Source: JBBIVP01 sp037439705 [NCBI: bacterium]
GTDB taxonomy: Bacteria; JBBIVP01
Assembly (NCBI GenBank): GCA_037439705.1
Contig: JBBIVP010000071.1
Location: 1,217 to 9,971 of the forward strand
Length of the DNA: 8,755 nt
Direction: 5' to 3'
In this document: piece after piece, positions 1 through 8,755 of the stretch
How positions within the stretch are numbered: the stretch's first letter is position 1
Layout of the letters: every line of letters begins with the position of its first letter
Notes under the pieces: model-generated
What the model was told of the DNA's origin: nothing
The model's input: only the letters and a program-made list of their open reading frames with translations
Databases searched by the model: none
Position numbers and translations under genes: made by a program

Positions 1-361
1 TATTATGAATTTCCATTGGGATTGCGAGCCTTGTGGGATTTTCCAGAACCACTTCGGGGATACCCAACTTAATTGGACGCCCAATGAACCCTCCATCTGG
101 TCTTTGCGAAAAATTTTTAACCTCATCACGCGTATAGCCATATGCATAGTTTATTTTCAACATTCCTGAATTATTGTCATATTCCATTATGGCTGCTCTT
201 TTAAGACCAAGAAAATCAACAAGCACCCTCAATGCTGAGTTAATGCTAATTTTTGGATTCGGTGAGGAACCAATAACCTTATTGACTTCATATAGCGTAG
301 TCATTTCAATTGTTCTTCGCTTGAGCAGATTTGCGTAGCCTTTTATTGTTCTTGGACCCAC
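1..361 (-). CDS. GAF-domain regulator, NifA-like N-terminus (partial)
   Basis: The frame is open from a GTG at 361 to the window edge (120 codons), so the C-terminus is missing. After a basic N-terminal helix, the stretch starting LYEVNKVIGSS and continuing through LVDFLGLKRAAI and GGFIGRPIKLGIPEVV reads like a GAF sensory domain of the kind at the N-terminus of NifA/NtrC-class sigma-54 activators. Such domains bind small ligands or partner proteins and control an AAA+ module, which would lie outside the window. GTG 361 is chosen because a -10-like TAAAAT ends 6 nt before it, with TTGAAA at -35, and there is no Shine-Dalgarno site; the next in-frame ATG is at 304. It is divergent from nadE-glnA, whose upstream region holds a sigma-54-like element. 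A GAF-containing histidine kinase or other signalling protein cannot be excluded. The GAF call is fairly sure; the sigma-54 activator call is inference. Confidence 0.68.
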   Translation of the reverse strand, partial: MGPRTIKGYANLLKRRTIEMTTLYEVNKVIGSSPNPKISINSALRVLVDFLGLKRAAIMEYDNNSGMLKINYAYGYTRDEVKNFSQRPDGGFIGRPIKLGIPEVVLENPTRLAIPMEIHN

Positions 362-367
362 ATTTCT

Positions 368-395
368 ATTTTATGCAAATTTTGAAAAATTTCAA
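368..395 (-). promoter_or_regulatory. Putative leaderless promoter of the GAF regulator
   Basis: On the minus strand TTGAAA (395-390), a 16-bp spacer and TAAAAT (373-368) are followed by 6 nt and the GTG at 361. The transcript would therefore begin at or next to the start codon. The -35 hexamer is one arm of the inverted repeat at 382-395, so a protein bound there would block the promoter. Confidence 0.5.
382..395. repeat. Inverted repeat TTGAAA-AA-TTTCAA
   Basis: Perfect 6-bp arms around a 2-bp centre. It overlaps the -35 hexamer of the leftward promoter and lies about 100 bp upstream of the predicted rightward start. Its centre (388.5) is 20 bp, about two helical turns, from that of the next dyad. 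Its role as an operator or enhancer site is inference, and the region is AT-rich, so chance is possible. Confidence 0.4.
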
Positions 396-399
396 CTAA

Positions 400-417
400 A
401 TTGTAAAAAATTACAAT
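400..417. repeat. Inverted repeat ATTGTAA-AAAA-TTACAAT
   Basis: Perfect 7-bp arms around AAAA, centred at 408.5. This is about 85 bp upstream of the start predicted from the sigma-54-like element at 467-481, a usual distance for activator (enhancer) sites. It contains TGT-N8-ACA, which resembles but does not match the NifA site TGT-N10-ACA. It is a candidate binding site for the divergent regulator. Confidence 0.45.
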
Positions 418-466
418 AAAGGTTATCCTTTACTTACAGTCAGTATATTTTATATCTACATATTTC

Positions 467-481
467 TGGCACAGAACTTGT
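467..481 (+). promoter_or_regulatory. Sigma-54-like -24/-12 promoter for nadE-glnA
   Basis: TGGCAC (467-472), 5 nt, then TTGT (478-481). The sigma-54 consensus is TGGCACG-N4-TTGCW; the spacing is exact and the -24 block is perfect, but the -12 dinucleotide is GT instead of GC. The predicted start at about 493 leaves a 15-nt leader that just includes the Shine-Dalgarno site. No convincing sigma-70 promoter was found facing nadE. Confidence 0.5.
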
Positions 482-496
482 AATAAAAATGACATG

Positions 497-503
497 AAAG
501 GAG
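497..503 (+). promoter_or_regulatory. Ribosome binding site deciding the nadE start
   Basis: AAAGGAG lies 5 nt upstream of GTG 509. It falls inside the reading frame if translation began at the upstream ATG 494, so it favours the GTG. Confidence 0.7.
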
Positions 504-508
504 TTTTT

Positions 509-1321
509 GTGAATTATAGAAAATTGGCGACAGAAATTTCTCAATGGATAAAGAAAGAGGTTGAGAGTGCAAAATTAAAAGGGGTGGTTTTCGGATTGAG
601 TGGAGGGGTGGATTCATCGGTGGTGGGAGTGCTTTGCAAAAATGTATTCCCAGATGCTCATCTCGCCCTCATACTCCCCTGCTTCTCATCCGAAGAGGAT
701 ACAGAGGACGCAAAACTTGTTGTTGAAAATTTTGGGTTAAATTCAAAAATAATAAATGTTGAACCTGTGTTTCTGGAATTTGCAAAAATTCTTGAGATTG
801 ACCCGCATTCCCGTGAACTCCCTGTCGTCAACATAAAACCCAGGTTAAGAATGGTAACCCTTTATTATTTTGCAAATCGCTTGAATTACCTTGTAGTAGG
901 AACAGGAAACAAGTCAGAACTCACTATGGGATATTTCACAAAATACGGAGACGGAGGAGTTGATATACTTCCGCTCGGCGATTTAACAAAAACGGAGGTT
1001 TACAAACTTGCTAAAGTTCTCGGAATACCTGAAAGGATAATAAAAAAACCACCATCAGCAGGTTTATGGCCAGGTCAAACAGATGAAGAAGAAATGAAAA
1101 TAAAATACAAAGAACTTGATAAAATAATTTCGGTTTTTGAAAAAAAGCAGAATCTTTCAGGAAGCAAAAAGGACCTTGCGGAAAAAATTCTTACTAAATC
1201 AAAAGTGGCAATTCATAAGCTCAGACCACCAAAAATTTTTAAAGTAAAAATGAAAAAACTTAAAAATAAAAATATAAAGGAGGTGCGGAATGAAAAAGGA
1301 AGAACTTTTAAAACTTCTTAA
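509..1321 (+). CDS. nadE: NH3-dependent NAD+ synthetase
   Basis: Converts deamido-NAD+, ATP and ammonia to NAD+, the last step of NAD synthesis, in the cytoplasm. From GTG 509 the product is 270 residues, normal for the single-domain ammonia-dependent form; there is no glutaminase (CN-hydrolase) domain. Visible family motifs are the PP-loop SGGVDSS at 31-37, GTGNKSE at 131-137, GYFTKYGDGG at 141-150 and the P-SAGLWPGQTDE block at 182-193. GTG 509 is preferred to ATG 494 because of AAAGGAG at 497-503. The last ~25 residues are a lysine-rich, low-complexity tail that reads through the glnA Shine-Dalgarno site and overlaps glnA by 32 bp, as if an earlier stop had been lost. It is first in an operon with glnA behind a sigma-54-like promoter, which links both ammonia-using enzymes to nitrogen supply (inference). 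Confidence 0.93.
   Translation: MNYRKLATEISQWIKKEVESAKLKGVVFGLSGGVDSSVVGVLCKNVFPDAHLALILPCFSSEEDTEDAKLVVENFGLNSKIINVEPVFLEFAKILEIDPHSRELPVVNIKPRLRMVTLYYFANRLNYLVVGTGNKSELTMGYFTKYGDGGVDILPLGDLTKTEVYKLAKVLGIPERIIKKPPSAGLWPGQTDEEEMKIKYKELDKIISVFEKKQNLSGSKKDLAEKILTKSKVAIHKLRPPKIFKVKMKKLKNKNIKEVRNEKGRTFKTS
1276..1284 (+). promoter_or_regulatory. Strong ribosome binding site for glnA
   Basis: AAAGGAGGT lies 5 nt before ATG 1290, inside the 3' end of nadE. It shows that the true glnA start is ATG 1290, upstream of the in-frame stop, and not ATG 1485, which has no such site. Confidence 0.8.
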
Positions 1322-2699
1322 AGAAAAAAGATACGAATTCGTGGACATGCTCTTTACGGACATATTTGGAACTATGCACCACTTCACAATACCACCCTCA
1401 TACCTGAAATAAGAAGACTTTGAAGAAGTTCTCGGTTTAGACGGTTCATCCAACACAGCATGGCTGGCTATTCATTTAAGCGATATGAATTTTGTTCCTG
1501 ACCCTGAAACAGCCTTTGAAAATCCCTTTTATTCCCATCCGACTATAAGCATAATAGGAAACATAATTGACCCGGTTACAAAACAGAGATATAGCAGAGA
1601 CCCACGATATATAGCCACAAAGGCAGAGATGTATCTAAAATCAACAGGAATAGGGGACACGGTTTACATAGGTCCTGAACTTGAATTTTTCATATTTGAC
1701 AATGTTCAGTTTGATTACAGAGAAAACAGGGCATTTCATCTTGTTGATTCCATAGAAGGATGGTGGAGAACAGGAGAAGAAGAAAACCCAAATCTCGGAT
1801 ACAAAATTCCATACAAAAGGGGATATTTCCCGGTTCCACCACACGATACCCTTCAGGACATAAGGGCAGAAATTGCAAATACCCTGCAAAAAATAGGAAT
1901 CACAGTTGAATACTTTCACCATGAAGTAGCAAGCGGAGGGCAGAATGAAATTGACTTTCGTTTTTCACCACTTGTAAAACAGGCTGATAATGTGATGATA
2001 TATAAATATGTCGTAAAGAACATTGCAAGAAAGCACGAGAAGGTAGCGACTTTTATGCCAAAACCACTTTTTGGAGATAACGGAAGCGGAATGCATACCC
2101 ATATCTCAATATGGAAAAATGGAAAACCTGTTTTTTCAGGTTCCGGTTATGCCGGGCTTTCTCAAACAGCACTTTATTTCATAGGAGGAATAATAAAACA
2201 CGGGAAAGCTCTTTGTGCTATTGTGGCACCGACAACTAATTCCTACAGAAGGCTTGTGCCAGGTTACGAAGCGCCTGTGAGACTTGCCTATTCCTCAAGA
2301 AACAGAAGCGCTGCAATAAGAATTCCGATGTATTCTGCATCTCCATCTGCAAAAAGAATTGAAATCCGTTTTCCAGACCCATCCTCAAATCCATATCTAA
2401 CATTTGCAGCCATCTTGATGGCAGGACTTGATGGAATAGAAAACAGAATTGACCCGGGAGACCCTCTTGACAGGGATATATATGCGCTTCCGCCTGAAGA
2501 ACTGGCAGATGTTCCACAGACACCCGGGAGTTTAGAAGAAGCATTAAATGAACTTGAGAAAGACCATGACTTCCTTCTCAAAGGAGATGTATTTACTGAA
2601 GATTTACTTATGGCATGGATAGAATGGAAAAGGAAAGAATGCTTTGAACTTCAGATTCGTCCTCACCCTTACGAATTTCTCATGTATTTTGATTCATGA
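1290..2699 (+). pseudogene. glnA: Type I glutamine synthetase interrupted by in-frame TAA
   Basis: Glutamine synthetase makes glutamine from glutamate, ammonia and ATP as a dodecamer. The frame runs from ATG 1290 (strong Shine-Dalgarno) to TGA 2699, 469 codons, full family length. Codon 41 (1410-1412) is TAA, between SYLK and EDFEE; homologues usually have an acidic or small residue there, so a single G-to-T change from GAA would explain it. Everything else looks intact: DGSS with the active-site Asp51, [10 protein letters not shown] (metal Glu130/132), [20 protein letters not shown] (His269), PGYEAPV and RNRSA. Tyr398 in DIYALPPEE matches the adenylylated Tyr397 of the E. coli enzyme. The open part after the stop begins at ATG 1485, lacks a ribosome site and would lose the N-terminal beta-grasp domain with Asp51, so it should not be active alone. 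Options are a recent nonsense mutation, a sequencing error or readthrough. It converges on the acyl-CoA dehydrogenase with a 21-bp gap and no visible hairpin terminator. Confidence 0.9.
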
Positions 2700-2720
2700 T
2701 TACACTCTTTAACATCCGTT

Positions 2721-3881
2721 TTAAATTTCTATTCCATACTCCTTCAACATCTCCTTGAAAATTATCCTTCTCTGGATTTCACTTGTGCCCTCTCCTATTT
2801 CACCGAGTTTCGCATCCCTGTAAAGCCTTTCAACCTTAAAGTCCGAGATATAACCGTAGCCTCCATGAATCTGCACCGCATCGCTTGCTATTCTCGTTGC
2901 GTGCTCGCTTATGAAAAGTTTGGCAATTGATGCGAACTCATTGGCATTTGGAGAATTTATTTCCTTCAACCATGCTGCTTTATAGAGATGAAGCCTCCCC
3001 TCATCAACAAGCGTTTTCAACTCAGCAATTTTAAAACTTATGTCCTCAAAATGAGCAATAGTCTTTCCGAAGGCTTTTCTTTCTGAAGCAAATTTTATAC
3101 TCTCTTCAAGACATGCCTGAGCAATTCCAAGAGAAAAAGCAGACATTGCAATCCTGCCTGTTTCAAGGGTTTTCATTGCATAATAAAAACCCTCATTCTC
3201 TTTACCGAGAAGATTTTGAAATGGCACGAAAACCTCATCAAGGTAAACCTCCGAAGTTGGACTTCCTCTTACACCAAGTTTTTTAAAAGGCTTTCCACTT
3301 TCAAGTCCATTTGTTCCCCTTTCAACCACAAAAGCGGATATTCCCCTTTTACCTTTTTCCTGCTCCGTCTTTGCAAATATAACAAAAATATCTGCCACGG
3401 GTCCGTTCGTTACAAAAGTCTTCCTGCCATTCAACACATATCCATCATCTACCTTTTTGGCAGTAGTTCTTATACCGCTCACATCCGACCCAGCTTCTGG
3501 TTCTGTAAGACAGAAGGCACCAATTTTTTCTCCTTTCAAAAGAGGTGGAATAAATTTCTTTCTGATTTCCTCATTTCCCGCTATGTATATGGAATTAGCG
3601 CAAAGCAATATACTCGCATTGGCGCTCAAAAATATAGATGGAGATACCCTTGCAAGTTCCTCCCACAATGCAGAACTTATAATAAGGGAAAGACCGAAAC
3701 CCCCATATTCCTGAAGAAAGAAACACCCGAGATAACCGAAATCGCCAAGTTTTCTAAAAATCTCCCTCGGGACCTCTCCCATTTCCTCCACCTTTTCTAC
3801 CACTGGCTCAATCTCTTTTTTTACAAAATCCTTAAAAGAATTTAAAACTTCCTTTTCCTCTTCTTTGAATTCATAATCCAT
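2721..3881 (-). CDS. Acyl-CoA dehydrogenase (SCAD/MCAD-type catalytic Glu)
   Basis: FAD enzyme that introduces the alpha,beta double bond into acyl-CoA, passing electrons to electron-transfer flavoprotein; cytoplasmic. The 386 residues are normal for the family. Visible: N-terminal helical domain, FCLTEPEAGSD at 123-133 and FVTNGP at 156-161 in the beta domain (FAD and substrate contacts), ERKAFGK at 267-273, and the C-terminal IHGGYGYISDF (338-348) and YRDAKLGEIGEGTSEIQ (354-370). Glu364 of EGTSE sits at the catalytic-base position of short- and medium-chain enzymes, and the alternative helix-G position is Gly242. It is last in the TetR-dehydrogenase-dehydrogenase operon; its AGGAGG (3888-3893) overlaps the stop of the preceding gene, with 10 bp between the genes. 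The exact acyl chain cannot be told from the sequence. Confidence 0.93.
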   Translation of the reverse strand: MDYEFKEEEKEVLNSFKDFVKKEIEPVVEKVEEMGEVPREIFRKLGDFGYLGCFFLQEYGGFGLSLIISSALWEELARVSPSIFLSANASILLCANSIYIAGNEEIRKKFIPPLLKGEKIGAFCLTEPEAGSDVSGIRTTAKKVDDGYVLNGRKTFVTNGPVADIFVIFAKTEQEKGKRGISAFVVERGTNGLESGKPFKKLGVRGSPTSEVYLDEVFVPFQNLLGKENEGFYYAMKTLETGRIAMSAFSLGIAQACLEESIKFASERKAFGKTIAHFEDISFKIAELKTLVDEGRLHLYKAAWLKEINSPNANEFASIAKLFISEHATRIASDAVQIHGGYGYISDFKVERLYRDAKLGEIGEGTSEIQRRIIFKEMLKEYGIEI

Positions 3882-3891
3882 TTTTTACCTC

Positions 3892-5067
3892 CTATTCTAT
3901 GTCCTTGCCTGAAAGTTGAATAAGAGCTCTTGCTATGATTGACTTCTGAATCTCTGATGTTCCACCACCTATGGTAGCAAGCCTTGCATCTCTGTAGCCT
4001 TTTTCTACTGAAAAATCCTTTATGTATCCGTAACCACCGAAAATCTGGAGGCTCTCATAAGATTGTTTTATAATTGCTTCAGAAACAAAAAGTTTTGCAA
4101 GGGAAGCCTCAACAAGAGCGGGAATTCCCTTATCAAGAAGCCATGCAACCCTGTAAACCAATTGCCTCGCTGCTTCAAGATTCATCTTCATCTCAACGAG
4201 TTTCTTCTGAATTGCCTGAAATTTAAGAATTGATTTTTTAAACTGAACCCTATCCCTCGCATACTCCATACACCTTCTTATCCCTGCTTCCATTGAACCA
4301 AGTGCAGGGGCAAGCAAACAGCTCCTCTCCCACATAAAGATATATTTAACAACCTCAGCAAAACCCATATCAATCGGTCCAAGGAGATTTTCTTCAGGAA
4401 CTTCACAATCCTCAAAAACAAGTTCTCCAGTTGGAGAAGTTCGGTTACCTAATTTATCAAGTTTTCTGCTCACACTGAACCCCTTAAATGTGCTTTCAAC
4501 TATGAAAGCGCTTATTCCAAACGGACCCTTGCTTTTGTCAGTAACCGCTATGGTCACAAACACCCTTCCAATAGGACCATTCGTTATAAATATCTTTGAA
4601 CCATTAAGAATAAATCTATCACCTTTTTTTACAGCATAGGTTCTCACCGACCCAGCATCAGAACCCGCATTTGGTTCAGTAAGGGCGAAACCTCCGATCC
4701 ATTCACCGCTTGCAATTTTTGGAAGGTATTTTTTCTTCTGTTCCTCTGTCCCGAGTTTCCATATAGGAACACCACAGAGAATTGTGTGGGCGCCCCAGGA
4801 AAGTGTTAAACCCGCATCAGCACCACCCATCGCAAATCCTTCTTTCGCAAGAACCGTCATCATAGCAGATGCTCCCTGCCCTCCATACTCTTCAGGAAAT
4901 GGAAGTCCGAGCAATCCAAATTCCCCCATCTTCTTCCAGCATTCCCAGGGAAACTCTCCCTTTTCGTCGTATTCTGGTTTTGAACTTTCGGGATAGATCT
5001 CCTTCTTTGAAAACTGATAAACGCTTTCTTTAAAAGCCTTCTCTTCTTCTGTGAGTTCAAAGTCCAT
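3892..5067 (-). CDS. Acyl-CoA dehydrogenase (IVD/LCAD-type catalytic Glu)
   Basis: A second acyl-CoA dehydrogenase of 391 residues, clearly divergent from its neighbour. Family motifs: EEYGGQG (59-65), FALTEPNAGSDAGS (127-140), FITNGP (160-165), QIFGGYGYIKDF (341-352) and YRDARLATIGGGTSEIQ (358-374). The usual C-terminal Glu of EGTSE is Gly368 here. Glu247 in the segment MWERSCLLAPALG lines up with the helix-G base of isovaleryl-CoA and long-chain acyl-CoA dehydrogenases (LERL...GPLG in human IVD), so it is probably active with that geometry. This suggests a branched or long acyl-CoA substrate, which differs from the downstream enzyme (inference). Its AAGGAGG (5074-5080) overlaps the TetR stop, and the gap is 12 bp. 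Translation of all three genes looks tightly linked. Confidence 0.93.
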   Translation of the reverse strand: MDFELTEEEKAFKESVYQFSKKEIYPESSKPEYDEKGEFPWECWKKMGEFGLLGLPFPEEYGGQGASAMMTVLAKEGFAMGGADAGLTLSWGAHTILCGVPIWKLGTEEQKKKYLPKIASGEWIGGFALTEPNAGSDAGSVRTYAVKKGDRFILNGSKIFITNGPIGRVFVTIAVTDKSKGPFGISAFIVESTFKGFSVSRKLDKLGNRTSPTGELVFEDCEVPEENLLGPIDMGFAEVVKYIFMWERSCLLAPALGSMEAGIRRCMEYARDRVQFKKSILKFQAIQKKLVEMKMNLEAARQLVYRVAWLLDKGIPALVEASLAKLFVSEAIIKQSYESLQIFGGYGYIKDFSVEKGYRDARLATIGGGTSEIQKSIIARALIQLSGKDIE

Positions 5068-5079
5068 CCTTAACCTCCT

Positions 5080-5685
5080 TTATTTTTTACAAAGTCCATT
5101 AAGATACACATCTATCAATGAATCTGCTGTATTCTTTAAATTTCTGACAAATTTCTTTTTATTTATTTCAGTAAGGGTGAAAAGGGTATCAACAATTCCC
5201 ATATACATCAAACTTGCCATAAGTGGAGACACATCTTCTCTAACCTCTCCTGATCTTTTCCCATTTTTTATAATTCTTTCCAAAATTTTTATAACATTGA
5301 GAAAAGGAGCATTAAGACCTTCTTTTATCAACCTCGGAGAACGGGAATATTCTGCAACAAGAACCTTCATGAGTTCTGGAAATTTTTTATAGGTATTCAG
5401 CAACAAAGATGTTATTTTTATAATTTTCTCCCTCAGCCCTTTCTCCTTCTCGTCAATCTCCTTTATGGATTTTAAAAAAATAGACCATTTTTCCTCAATT
5501 ATTTGCTTTAAAAGTTCATCCTTACTGCTAAAATAATGATAAACAAGCCCGTATGCTGTGCCTGCTTCCTCTGCTATATCTGAAATTCTCGCATTTTCAA
5601 ACCCTTTCCTCGCAAAAACTCTAATTGCAGAATTGATAATACTTTCCCTTTTTTCCTCCACGCCTTTCAAATTTCTGACTGACAT
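5080..5685 (-). CDS. TetR-family regulator of the acyl-CoA dehydrogenase operon
   Basis: A 201-residue TetR protein from ATG 5685. The N-terminal DNA-binding domain covers about residues 11-58, with typical ARKGFENARISDIAEEAG (about 25-42) and YHYFSSKDELL for the recognition region. The rest is an all-helical ligand and dimer domain too variable to name a ligand. It is first in the operon with two acyl-CoA dehydrogenases, so a FadR-like repressor released by an acyl-CoA is the likely role (inference). An upstream in-frame ATG at 5697 would give 205 residues, but it lies inside the predicted -10 hexamer; neither start has a Shine-Dalgarno site. The near-palindrome at 5676-5693 covers the preferred start codon and would let the protein repress its own operon. 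Confidence 0.88.
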   Translation of the reverse strand: MSVRNLKGVEEKRESIINSAIRVFARKGFENARISDIAEEAGTAYGLVYHYFSSKDELLKQIIEEKWSIFLKSIKEIDEKEKGLREKIIKITSLLLNTYKKFPELMKVLVAEYSRSPRLIKEGLNAPFLNVIKILERIIKNGKRSGEVREDVSPLMASLMYMGIVDTLFTLTEINKKKFVRNLKNTADSLIDVYLNGLCKK

Positions 5686-5693
5686 ATCAATCA
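5676..5693. promoter_or_regulatory. Candidate TetR operator TGACTGA-CATA-TCAATCA
   Basis: An inverted repeat with 7-bp arms (6 of 7 pairs match) and a 4-bp centre. It lies just downstream of the predicted -10 and covers the transcription start and ATG 5685. The TGAnTGA...TCAnTCA form resembles operators of FadR-like TetR repressors. Binding is inference. Confidence 0.45.
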
Positions 5694-5695
5694 AC

Positions 5696-5725
5696 ATAAT
5701 ACACCATCTTTTAGAGACAGGTCAA
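5696..5725 (-). promoter_or_regulatory. Putative promoter of the TetR-acyl-CoA dehydrogenase operon
   Basis: TTGACC (5725-5720), an 18-bp spacer and TATTAT (5701-5696) on the minus strand, each hexamer matching consensus at 5 of 6. The predicted start is only a few bases before ATG 5685, giving a nearly leaderless mRNA. It sits in the 60-bp gap after the lysine-tailed protein gene, so the dehydrogenase genes can be expressed apart from the ATPase unit. Confidence 0.5.
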
Positions 5726-5745
5726 GAAACTTTTGATTTTACCAT

Positions 5746-6009
5746 TCAGAGCCTTACTTTTTTAAATCCTCCTTTTTTCTTTGCTTTCCCCTTTTTCTTA
5801 CCCATTATTCCAGGCTCCTTAAGAATCCTCTCAATTTCTTTTGAAAGCTTAAAAAGGCTAATGGAAGCGAGTTCAGAAACCGACCCTTTTCCTGATTTTT
5901 GAAGAATTACGGATATCAGTCTGGAAAGGGCACTCAAAAATTTTAATCCGCTTACGAAAAAATCTCCTGCTGATTCAAGAACTTCTTGAAGTATTTCTTC
6001 CTCTTTCAT
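5746..6009 (-). CDS. Unrecognised 87-aa lysine-tailed protein coupled to ArsA-like ATPase
   Basis: I do not recognise this family. Its ATG overlaps the TGA of the upstream ATPase gene in an ATGA arrangement (6009-6006), which strongly suggests translational coupling and supports a real gene. An acidic start (MKEEE) is followed by a hydrophobic or amphipathic stretch at about 16-37 (FFVSGLKFLSALSRLISVIL), a second predicted helix at about 45-66, and a strongly basic tail at 71-86 made mostly of Lys with Gly. The hydrophobic stretch is interrupted by Lys, Ser and Arg, so a classical transmembrane helix is doubtful; a surface-binding amphipathic helix is more likely. A role as a client or partner of the Get3/ArsA-like ATPase is speculation based on the coupling alone. 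The basic tail could bind nucleic acid or acidic membrane surfaces. Confidence 0.7.
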   Translation of the reverse strand: MKEEEILQEVLESAGDFFVSGLKFLSALSRLISVILQKSGKGSVSELASISLFKLSKEIERILKEPGIMGKKKGKAKKKGGFKKVRL

Positions 6010-7109
6010 TTTTTACATACAGAGATTCTCAACCAGCCATGAGAAAAATCTGCTTCTCTCACATCCATCCTTCCATTTCCCTTAAAAAACAGAGCCCTCT
6101 TGAAAGGACCCGATTTTATGACAAGTTCATTTCCATCTATCCACATTTCTATGTCCTCTTTTTTCATTCCCGGAAAGAAAAATTCAATGGCCATCTGATG
6201 ACCTTTTCTTGTTACCTTCAAGGGTTCAATTTTTGAAAGAAAATCATCTGGGGAAATACTTCCGTAGATTTTTTCACCCAGGCGTTTTAAAACCTCAAAT
6301 CCGATGGGCTCTTTTTCAAATTCCTCAAGTTTCATTATGCAAATGGGAGAAAACATGTATTTCAACCTTTCAAAAAATTCTTCATCCTCTGAAAATCTGT
6401 TCAGGATTATTCCATCAACAGGATATTCAAAAAGGGAAAGAGCAGAATACAATCTTATGGTCTCATTAAAAGCTATCTCTGATGGAAGCGTCACAATGCG
6501 GAAGGATGTTTTTGATGAATCCCTCAGGAGAGAATGTAGTTTCAAAATTTTTTCGTAAATCGTTTCAATATCATCTATAAAATCCTTATCGGGAAGAGGG
6601 GTGTAAAAATACCTCTCCATAATGGGTTTAACCCTTATATACCTTCTTTTAGCACTGTTTAAAAATCTATTTTTATACCAGTTCAAGGTCTCAGGCAAAC
6701 TCAAAAATTTAAGGGATGAAGCGGTAGGTGGACCATCAACAATAAGAACATCATATTTCTGCGATTCAATTATTTTCAGAAGGGATATGAAAAAAAGAAC
6801 CTCCTCCATTCCTGGAAGAAGAACCATCTCCTCCGCATAGACTTCATTAAGTCCCTGCTCCTCAAGGAAATTTTTTAGAAACCTGTATATCCCGTTCCAG
6901 CCTTTTCTGAGTTCTGCATCGGGATCAAACTCAATTACTGCCAAATTTTCGCCTTTAAACTCCTTTCCAAGGATATCCTTCAGATTGTGAGCAAGATCAA
7001 GGCTCGCAAGGACAACCCTTTTCCCACTTCTTGCTATTCTTACTGCAGTAGCGCATGAAAGGGTGGATTTTCCCACCCCGCCCTTGCCGGTAAAAAATAT
7101 AACTCGCAT
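6006..7109 (-). CDS. ArsA/Get3-like ATPase with C-terminal HSP20-like domain
   Basis: A 367-residue single-copy member of the ArsA/Get3 (anion-transporting ATPase) family. It has the deviant Walker A GKGGVGKST at 8-16, switch I SLDLAHN at 36-42 (usual STDPAHS; Asp38 is kept but Pro is Leu), PGMEEVLFF at 99-107, switch II-like VDGPPTASSLKFLSLPE at 124-140 (usual DTAPTGHTLRLL), and an LPSEIAFNETIR block at 208-219. Residues ~303-366 (MAIEFFFPGMKKEDI...GWLRISV) match the alpha-crystallin/HSP20-like tail seen on many ArsA relatives. No CxxC of the eukaryotic Get3 kind is present, and no arsenic genes are nearby, so arsenite pumping is unlikely. Protein targeting or chaperone-like work is possible, and function is open. 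It starts at ATG 7109 without a Shine-Dalgarno site but behind a near-perfect promoter that predicts a leaderless mRNA. The 87-aa gene follows with ATGA overlap. Confidence 0.88.
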   Translation of the reverse strand: MRVIFFTGKGGVGKSTLSCATAVRIARSGKRVVLASLDLAHNLKDILGKEFKGENLAVIEFDPDAELRKGWNGIYRFLKNFLEEQGLNEVYAEEMVLLPGMEEVLFFISLLKIIESQKYDVLIVDGPPTASSLKFLSLPETLNWYKNRFLNSAKRRYIRVKPIMERYFYTPLPDKDFIDDIETIYEKILKLHSLLRDSSKTSFRIVTLPSEIAFNETIRLYSALSLFEYPVDGIILNRFSEDEEFFERLKYMFSPICIMKLEEFEKEPIGFEVLKRLGEKIYGSISPDDFLSKIEPLKVTRKGHQMAIEFFFPGMKKEDIEMWIDGNELVIKSGPFKRALFFKGNGRMDVREADFSHGWLRISVCKK

Positions 7110-7115
7110 GCTTCA

Positions 7116-7144
7116 ATTATAGTTAGTGCAGGGGAGAATTTCAA
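7116..7144 (-). promoter_or_regulatory. Leaderless promoter of the ArsA-like ATPase operon
   Basis: On the minus strand: TTGAAA (7144-7139), a 17-bp spacer and a perfect TATAAT (7121-7116), then 6 nt to ATG 7109. Standard -10 geometry puts the transcription start at the A of the start codon. It is the best promoter match in the window. Confidence 0.68.
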
Positions 7145-7196
7145 TTACTCGGCATTTTTCAGAAAATTCAAAATTTGCTTGGACAAACTTTATTTC

Positions 7197-7208
7197 TTTG
7201 AGCTCAAA
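7197..7208. repeat. Perfect 12-bp palindrome in a divergent promoter region
   Basis: TTTGAGCTCAAA is its own reverse complement. It lies in the 167-bp gap between the divergent ArsA-like and DsbB-like genes, upstream of both promoters (about 53 bp upstream of the ArsA -35 and 35 bp upstream of the DsbB -35). A shared regulator site is possible; no regulator is identified. Confidence 0.35.
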
Positions 7209-7242
7209 TCTCCTCCGCAACGATATTTGTGCTTCTAAAAAC

Positions 7243-7270
7243 TTGAAAATTTAAGGGGGGATGTTATCAT
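7243..7270 (+). promoter_or_regulatory. Putative leaderless promoter of the DsbB-like gene
   Basis: TTGAAA (7243-7248), a 16-bp spacer and TATCAT (7265-7270), then 6 nt to ATG 7277. The arrangement is the same as for the ArsA-like ATPase and the GAF regulator. The spacer contains a run of six G (7255-7260) that looks like a ribosome site for ATG 7261 but directly abuts it, so it is not used as one. Confidence 0.52.
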
Positions 7271-7276
7271 TAAAGC

Positions 7277-7741
7277 ATGGATTTAATAAAAAAGGCGATT
7301 CCAATAGGAAAGATTCTTATTTTGGTTTTTTCACTGATAGGTATCACAGGAAGTTTCTCTCTTTCTGCAAGTGGAGAAATTCCGTGCCCTTATTGTTTAA
7401 TTGCAAGATATTCTCTGGTCATCATTCTTCTTCTCTCACTTCTTGCCCTATTTTTGAAAAAAAACCCCATTTACATAGGTACTGCCATAATCTCAATTCT
7501 TCCAATTGTTGCCTCTTCAATCCTCGTTTATAACGATTACTTCGTTCAGGGAGGAACTGAAATATGCTATTCAGAAAACAGCGATGTCCACTGCACCTCC
7601 CCACTCGTGTTTGGAATCCATGTATCCCTCTATGCCCTTCTCATAAGCCTTGCCATTTTGTTTTTATCACTTTTACTCATCACAGGAAGTTTTATTGTGA
7701 AAAAATATGAAGGTACTGATTCTTGTAGAAAACACGGTTGA
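7277..7741 (+). CDS. DsbB/BdbC-like disulfide bond oxidoreductase
   Basis: A 154-residue inner-membrane protein with about four transmembrane helices (roughly 9-28, 45-61, 64-85 and 111-140). DsbB-family proteins reoxidise DsbA-like thioredoxins and pass electrons to quinone. The first loop carries CPYC at 37-40 followed by the family-typical LIARY. The second loop carries the other pair, Cys97 and Cys106 (ICYSENSDVHC), so both catalytic cysteine pairs are present. Size and spacing suit the short BdbC-like branch. No DsbA-like partner is in the window. The start is ATG 7277, which has no Shine-Dalgarno site but has a -10 hexamer 6 nt upstream. The 3' end overlaps the next gene by 35 bp in another frame. 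The secreted GH5-like enzyme 0.8 kb downstream could be a client of disulfide formation, but there is no direct evidence. Confidence 0.85.
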   Translation: MDLIKKAIPIGKILILVFSLIGITGSFSLSASGEIPCPYCLIARYSLVIILLLSLLALFLKKNPIYIGTAIISILPIVASSILVYNDYFVQGGTEICYSENSDVHCTSPLVFGIHVSLYALLISLAILFLSLLLITGSFIVKKYEGTDSCRKHG

Positions 7742-8540
7742 GGTCAGTTTTCTTCTAACAGGCGAGCACGGACTTTCAATCCTAATTGACAATGGAAATG
7801 AAAAGGTTCTATTTGATACAGGACAGGGAATGAGCATTATCAACAATTCTCAATTTCTCGGACTTGACCTTTCCGAAATAAAGTGCATAGCATTGAGTCA
7901 CGGACATTCAGACCACACAAGGGGATTGAAACCCGTCCTTGAAATTACAGGAAAAAGAGATATCTATGCCCATCCAGGCGTATTTGGTAAAAAATACTTT
8001 ATTGGTAAGAGAAAAGGAGTAGATGTGGAACTTTCAATCGGGATTCCGTATGAGAAAAAAGAAATAGAAGAAATGGGAAGACTGGTCTTAACAGATTCAA
8101 GCGTTAAACTTGCTGATGGTATATGGACAAGCGGTGAAATTCCTTTTGTTACAGAATTTGAAAGAGTTGACCCAACATTTTTCATTCAGGAGGGAGAAAA
8201 ATTTCAACCCGACACCATGCCGGTAGACCTTGCCATATTATAAAAATCCGAGAAGGGATACAGTAACCTACAGGTATGAGGACAAACAGGCGAATGCAAC
8301 ACAATTGAAGATATATAAAATAAATCACAAGAAAGAGAATTTTACGCACTGATAGGTGGAACACATTTAGTAAGCGCTGATGAGAAGAAAATTGAAAAGA
8401 CAATAAATCTCCTTAAGAGGTATAAATTTAAAAAAATAGTTCCCTGTCATTGCACAGGATTGAAGGCTAACTTTGAAATTTTTAAAAACTTCGGCGAAGT
8501 TTTCGTGCCGGGATGCGTAGGCACCGCATTAGAAATTTAA
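7707..8540 (+). pseudogene. MBL-fold metallohydrolase gene broken by three in-frame stops
   Basis: The N-terminal 178 codons encode a metallo-beta-lactamase-fold protein of the MJ0301/TM0207-like group (often named dihydropterin-ribofuranosyl-aminobenzene phosphate synthase-like). It opens with LLTGEHGLSILID and LFDTGQG, with the metal motif SHGHSDH at 64-70. The frame stops at TAA 8241, but reading on in the same frame gives the family's C-terminal part: GQTGECNTIED, then FYALIGGTHL, IVPCHCTG and FVPGCVGTALEI, ending at TAA 8538-8540 (277 codons, normal length). Further in-frame stops are TGA 8277 and TAA 8316. No frameshift is needed. The motif normally reading GCSHxG is V-stop-GQTG, so Cys is replaced by TGA and the metal His by Gln: the catalytic site is damaged beyond the stops. 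The truncated 178-aa product would lack the third metal-binding segment. A decaying gene is the best reading; locally bad sequence is the alternative. Confidence 0.83.
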
Positions 8541-8569
8541 TAGACTTATTCCGGTGAAAATTATAAAAT
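8541..8569 (+). promoter_or_regulatory. Possible leaderless promoter of the GH5-like gene
   Basis: TAAAAT (8564-8569) ends 6 nt before ATG 8576, as in the other leaderless units. The -35 candidate TAGACT (8541-8546, 17-bp spacer) matches consensus at only 4 of 6, so this is the weakest member of the set. Confidence 0.38.
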
Positions 8570-8575
8570 AAGAAA

Positions 8576-8755
8576 ATGAAATTAAAAAGAATAGTTTTGA
8601 AGTATGTCTTTATTTTAATTTTTTCTTTTCTTCATTGTTCGGAGCCATCCAAAGAATTCATAAATTCAAAAGGTAGATGGCTGATTGATGAAAAGGAAAG
8701 GATTTTAATATTAAGAGGAATAAATTTTTCAGACAGGTCCAAAAGACCTCCCTTT
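8576..8755 (+). CDS. GH5-like secreted glycosidase, N-terminus (partial)
   Basis: Sixty codons are open to the window edge. An N-terminal basic segment (KLKR, K9) and a hydrophobic core at about 10-20 form a signal peptide. Cys21 follows FLH, so a lipoprotein is possible, though the lipobox is off-consensus. The mature start GRWLIDEKERILILRGINFSD-RSKRPPF (33-60) matches the first strand of glycoside hydrolase family 5 enzymes of the endoglycoceramidase-like kind, which begin with D-x-x-GR-x-x-LRG-VN and a nearby SK-x-P. The catalytic glutamates lie outside the window. There is no Shine-Dalgarno site before ATG 8576. It would act outside the cytoplasm on a glycan or glycolipid; the substrate is not determinable here. 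Confidence 0.68.
   Translation, partial: MKLKRIVLKYVFILIFSFLHCSEPSKEFINSKGRWLIDEKERILILRGINFSDRSKRPPF

Follow-up and report, generated by a model that had tools for sequence, protein, structure and literature searches.

A common 6-nt spacing between -10 hexamer and start codon suggests leaderless transcription units in an 8.8-kb bacterial window

We analysed a stretch of 8755 bases (38% GC) from the bacterial genome JBBIVP01 sp037439705 (contig JBBIVP010000071.1, positions 1,217 to 9,971), here called the window at its full length, with a focus on the promoter elements that lie directly in front of its genes. Gene assignments were derived from Pfam and NCBIfam searches of the window proteins. 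There are 11 gene starts in the window, six of which head transcription units (a GAF-like regulator, nadE, a TetR regulator, an ArsA/Get3-type ATPase, a DsbB-like protein and a lipoprotein-like gene) and five of which are internal (glnA, acyl-CoA dehydrogenases 1 and 2, a gene for a protein of 87 amino acids (aa), and a gene for a metallo-beta-lactamase-fold (MBL) protein). The nadE, glnA, MBL and both dehydrogenase proteins were identified in these searches, as was the ATPase, which carries an HSP20-like tail. The GAF-like assignment is weak (a NifA N-terminal match at E 0.006), the frame of 120 aa giving no Pfam match at E<=1. The best NCBIfam match of the TetR regulator, FadR of the Bacillus type, fell below the cut-off, as did the library match of the DsbB-like protein. 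Neither library returned a match for the 87-aa protein or for the 60 aa of the lipoprotein-like gene that lie inside the window (the first 60 of the gene), and neither supports the GH5 identity that the initial annotation had assigned to this gene at 8576. Neither the Rfam scan nor the tRNA scan gave a hit in the window.

Four of the six unit heads present a -10 hexamer of the form TANNNT that ends exactly 6 nucleotides (nt) before the start codon, with the spacing that the initial annotation had described in all four cases. On the reverse strand, the GAF-like gene (359-395) has the -35 hexamer TTGAAA at 395-390, a spacer of 16 nt, the -10 hexamer TAAAAT at 373-368 and, after 6 nt, GTG at 361-359, with T at -1 and G at +1. 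The ArsA-like ATPase gene (7107-7144, reverse strand) has TTGAAA at 7144-7139, a 17-nt spacer, TATAAT at 7121-7116 and, after 6 nt, ATG at 7109-7107; its 11/12 match to the consensus is the best of the window. On the forward strand, the DsbB-like gene (7243-7279) combines TTGAAA at 7243-7248, 16 nt, a -10 hexamer TATCAT at 7265-7270 that is extended by a preceding TG, and ATG 6 nt further at 7277-7279 (10/12), and the lipoprotein-like gene (8541-8578) combines a weak -35 element, TAGACT at 8541-8546, with 17 nt, TAAAAT at 8564-8569 and ATG 6 nt further at 8576-8578 (9/12). The TetR gene (5683-5725, reverse strand) comes close to the pattern, as had also been noted, with TTGACC at 5725-5720, a spacer of 18 nt and TATTAT at 5701-5696, 10 nt before ATG5685 (10/12). 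For each of the four genes the best promoter with a -10 hexamer ending 0-39 nt before the start is the one at a gap of 6. Three of them (GAF, ArsA and DsbB) have TTGAAA at 16-17 nt from the -10 hexamer, and three have a pyrimidine followed by a purine at -1/+1. The proposed preference for TTGAAA over TTGACA draws on those three sites only. Note that in the divergent ArsA and DsbB promoters (7110-7276) the stretch that runs from the hexamer's final T to the start codon is near-identical (TTGAAGC-ATG and TTAAAGC-ATG).

The start codons of these genes are constrained from upstream. An in-frame stop lies 12 nt before GTG361 and ATG8576 and 6 nt before ATG7109 and ATG7277 (a TAA in the latter), with no start codon in between in any of the four genes, and an earlier start is consequently impossible. 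In the TetR gene the earlier ATG5697 overlaps the -10 hexamer, so that the rule relating this hexamer to the start excludes it and selects ATG5685. As had been suggested, the spacing helps to choose GTG361 and ATG5685. The ArsA start can also be compared with homologues, in which the start was taken as the in-frame start codon nearest to the expected place: the GKGGVGK P-loop is found at an equal distance from the start in six of eight, and the N-terminus is longer by 1 residue in one of the other two and by 7 residues in the second. Of the four genes, this comparison covered ArsA alone, and it is there that homology speaks against a later start.

Potential Shine-Dalgarno (SD) sites follow a different distribution. 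The pairing energy (dG) is near zero upstream of the GAF (+0.2), ArsA (+0.4) and lipoprotein-like (-0.1) genes, and the absence of SD sites claimed for the four genes is clean in these three. The DsbB gene reaches -5.5, of which a run of six G at -22 to -17 is apparently the source; this run is too far from the start to be an SD site. With the DsbB value put down to the G-run, all four genes appear to lack an SD site in range. The value for TetR at ATG5685 is -5.3. Among the first genes, nadE (497-511, forward strand) is a leadered one with the SD site AAAGGAG at 497-503, followed by 5 nt and GTG509 (-7.5), and no TANNNT was found at a gap of 0-39 before GTG509. Among internal genes, SD sites precede glnA (AAAGGAGG at 1276-1283, ATG1290; 1276-1292, forward strand; -14.5), acyl-CoA dehydrogenase 2 (AGGAGG at 3893-3888, ATG3881; 3879-3893, reverse strand; -11.6) and acyl-CoA dehydrogenase 1 (AAAGGAGG at 5081-5074, ATG5067; 5065-5081, reverse strand; -12.1). 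The statement that internal genes have strong SD sites thus applies to these three and fails for the other two of the five, the 87-aa gene (+0.2) and the MBL gene (-2.1), which have weak sites or none.

The common gap was evaluated by dinucleotide shuffling (4000 rounds) of the 70-nt segment that precedes each start, taking the best common gap among 0-30 and entering TetR with ATG5685. For the six first genes, four TANNNT hexamers fell at one gap in a single shuffle (1/4000), and neither four promoters of at least 9/12 nor three of at least 10/12 ever did (0/4000 each). When all 11 starts were included, the same three measures gave 14/4000, 0/4000 and 0/4000. Furthermore, a scan of both strands for promoters of at least 10/12 (A2 and T6 of the -10 hexamer present, at least 4/6 in each hexamer, spacer of 16-18 nt) recovered only four sites in the window, and all are located at gene starts: DsbB, ArsA and GAF at a gap of 6 and TetR at a gap of 10. 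The shared 6-nt spacing is real, not chance.

Comparison with other bacteria places this spacing in context. In 50 kb of Deinococcus deserti plasmid 1 (59% GC for this stretch), TANNNT lies at a gap of 6 in 9 of 28 first genes and any other gap from 0 to 25 holds none or one; the gene table used was the incomplete one of PLSDB, and some of these 'first' genes may not be first. A broader control comprised 92 loci, mainly glutamine synthetase relatives and not relatives of the window organism. Frames had to reach 110 aa, as many as three candidate starts were admitted for each gene, and genes that were truncated by a locus end, lay less than 80 nt from an end or were near N were left out. The fuller promoter (TANNNT and -35 hexamer each at least 4/6) occurs at a gap of 6 in four of the six first genes of the window and in none of 114 first genes from 23 low-GC loci of other bacteria (Fisher p ~2e-6, for a measure picked after the window had been viewed). 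We also scanned other genomes for TTGAAA-N17-TATAAT-N0-20-ATG. Among the matches listed, the gap was 6 in 8 of 101 (148 genomes) and in 11 of 98 (178 genomes without genome G143), and 8 in 12 matches of each sample; a gap of 6 is thus mildly raised and a sharp peak is absent. The AT-rich genome G143, from an Acidobacteria-centred sample, had 39 matches, the next highest number there being 9, and 10 of its 22 listed matches were at a gap of 5 or 6. We rejected it as a leaderless relative because six of eight of these gap-5/6 sites head no frame of at least 30 aa (one heads a frame of at least 300 aa and one a frame of 52 aa). Several G143 matches have look-alike spacers, and its matches as a group suggest a repeated promoter or element.

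Transcription generally begins some 7 nt past the -10 hexamer. With a 6-nt gap, the usual transcription start would coincide with the A or G that opens the start codon, which makes a leaderless mRNA the best explanation. The TANNNT hexamers would place transcription starts at the start codon in the four genes with a gap of 6 and within a few nucleotides of it in TetR, with its gap of 10. We consider it probable that the GAF, ArsA, DsbB and lipoprotein-like units produce leaderless mRNAs from sigma-70-type promoters, that the TetR unit is near-leaderless, and that nadE, glnA and the dehydrogenases are initiated at SD sites. In the mechanism we propose, housekeeping sigma-70-type promoters would drive the four units, with polymerase starting on the initial nucleotide of ATG or GTG, and the leaderless mRNAs would be translated without an SD site, probably by 70S ribosomes that bind the 5'-terminal AUG or GUG. 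The TetR transcript would carry about 4 nt of leader ahead of ATG5685. The operon-internal glnA and dehydrogenase genes, together with the leadered nadE, would rely on SD initiation.

Among other explanations, the least improbable would have leadered transcripts arise from promoters further upstream and be translated without an SD site, with help, for instance, from ribosomal protein S1 and weak structure. According to one study (PMC5397173), S1 sites and not a -10 box may lie behind the AT-rich sequence found upstream of non-SD genes, but in each of the four genes the best promoter sits at a gap of 6, and an S1 site predicts neither a -35/-10 pair nor one exact gap; we regard this explanation as improbable. 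A slightly smaller chance is given to the possibility that the promoters are real and translation begins at a later in-frame codon, which would leave short leaders inside the annotated genes. It draws on the GAF-like frame, whose N-terminus is weakly constrained because its 120 aa lack a Pfam match, and on TetR, which itself offers a choice of starts. Against it, ArsA begins at a conserved N-terminus, a lipoprotein-type signal sequence is seen by eye from ATG8576, and the next DsbB candidate, the TTG at 7322, would cut (also by eye) the first hydrophobic stretch. Finally, a chance origin of the hexamers in AT-rich intergenic DNA, with the true promoters elsewhere, is the least probable of all, since the 38% GC of the window and a generic promoter scan that finds 24 sites against a shuffle mean of 19.8 (sd 3.8) are outweighed by the placement of every site of at least 10/12 at a gene start, by a common gap in only 0 to 14 of 4000 shuffles and by the 0/114 of the low-GC comparison genes.

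Several observations weigh against leaderless initiation as proposed here for the four units. The nadE gene is a direct counterexample among the first genes; leaderless initiation of first genes, as originally suggested, holds for the four genes and in near-leaderless form for TetR, and is too general as a rule. The sample is small (four cases in one 8.8-kb window), the -35 element of the lipoprotein-like gene (TAGACT, N17) is weak, the proposal builds on predicted RNA 5' ends, and promoters further upstream could yield leadered transcripts too. In 50 kb of Thermus thermophilus pTT27, TANNNT at a gap of 6 was found in 1 of 14 first genes and in 5 of 33 that an 80-nt rule classes as internal, which indicates that the tie between this gap and first genes is not universal, though the gap itself is shared. 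Of the 114 first genes from low-GC loci, 5 have a bare TANNNT at a gap of 6. First genes with the fuller promoter at this gap number 2 of 201 at a GC of 45-55% and 0 of 198 at 55% GC or above. Of eight distant ArsA homologues, one has TANNNT at a gap of 6, and there it precedes a start that lies earlier by 7 codons.

The neighbouring genes and their relatives deserve mention. The glnA frame, with matches to the glutamine synthetase N-domain and catalytic domain, carries a single in-frame TAA at codon 41 (1410-1412, forward strand) and is open on both sides; the TAA may be a sequencing error or mark a damaged gene. The MBL gene (from 7707, forward strand) has three in-frame stops at 8241, 8277 and 8316 (stretch 8241-8318). 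The original frame reopens past them, to 8538, so that the middle stretch appears shifted or poorly sequenced. TetR lies directly upstream of the two acyl-CoA dehydrogenases (2721-5697, reverse strand), and the three genes perhaps form a fatty-acid operon that regulates itself and opens with an almost leaderless gene. Glutamine synthetase searches of genome contigs gave at least 593 stretches and at least 569 relatives, with a best identity of 69% among the matches listed, mostly under Desulfobacterota titles. In the best 80 of these at least 569 loci, other window proteins were represented by nadE (<=37%), one GAF match (32%) and one TetR match (24%), and ArsA, DsbB, MBL and the acyl-CoA dehydrogenases had no match. 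No ArsA relative was present among 51 genome-contig and 7 viral-contig stretches that fit its pattern, nadE had no match in viral contigs, and acyl-CoA dehydrogenase 1 had two there (32-33%). Whole-genome searches used strict E cut-offs of our choice and inferred phylum labels. For ArsA, identity did not exceed 37% either in the genomes belonging to 23 of these 80 loci or in 179 genomes from the phylum of an Acidobacteria locus (E<=1e-30); the protein was found in 2 of 199 genomes of the phylum of a Planctomycetaceae locus (E<=1e-50, <=34%) and in 0 of 201 of that of a Dehalococcoidia locus (E<=1e-60). For nadE, identities were at most 53% in 178 genomes (phylum of the Acidobacteria locus) and 54% in 148 (phylum of Desulfacinum), with 0 of 118 and 0 of 120 genomes at E<=1e-50 in the phyla of Nitrospirae and Spirochaetota loci. 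Neither these searches nor a family search with the HSP20-like domain of ArsA, a PDB search or NCBIfam assigned the organism to a group.

In practice, the 6-nt rule can be used to settle start codons and to locate the heads of operons in the window organism without RNA data. As judged from this one window, four of six first genes (five with TetR) and 4 of all 11 genes would be leaderless. It is a tentative and rather doubtful suggestion that the organism belongs to a low-GC lineage whose operons express their first genes mainly as leaderless mRNA, made from full -35/-10 promoters. If true genome-wide, the pattern would place a low-GC lineage among the bacteria with a heavy reliance on leaderless mRNA, a use best documented in Actinobacteria and Deinococcus-Thermus. 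The latter share the 6-nt peak, as the first genes of D. deserti plasmid 1 illustrate; Deinococcota are a GC-rich group, and GC content differs between the D. deserti stretch (59%) and the window (38%), which makes a Deinococcota origin of the window unlikely. The leaderless design itself is already published for many bacterial groups, and the window is a clean instance of it, with a full -35 hexamer in three of four cases and in a low-GC organism. The survey of Zheng et al. (2011; PMC3160421) reports TANNNT some 12 bp before starts in 207 of 953 bacterial genomes and, over the genomes where it was detected, a mean share of 39.4% in Deinococcus-Thermus (5/5 genomes), 26.5% in Aquificae (2/5), 19.2% in Actinobacteria (86/89) and 13.3% in Acidobacteria (3/3). 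The 4 of 11 genes of the window approximate its Deinococcus-Thermus average. The TA-led genes of that survey lie at the same distance, about 12 bp from the first T corresponding to a gap of about 6, and coexist with SD-led genes. In Firmicutes, mostly low in GC, their middle positions become TAtAAT, a likeness to the window. The survey comprises sequenced genomes of named groups; the protein searches described above did not assign the window organism to a group. TANNNT just upstream of the start is interpreted as leaderless there and in Deinococcus work (PMC3160421, PMC12340547); an upstream AT bias alone, as has been cautioned, need not mean leaderless initiation (PMC5397173). The -10 motif adjoining open reading frames was tested experimentally in Deinococcus, and in D. 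radiodurans, as reported, it can serve alone and is enhanced by an added -35 element (PMC12340547), which three of the four window promoters possess as TTGAAA. TANNNT promoters were also mapped in Mycobacterium tuberculosis, where the same -10 hexamer precedes mapped transcription starts with a preferred purine; a conserved -35 element was not found in that account (PMC3898074), whereas three of the four window promoters have TTGAAA at 16-17 nt.

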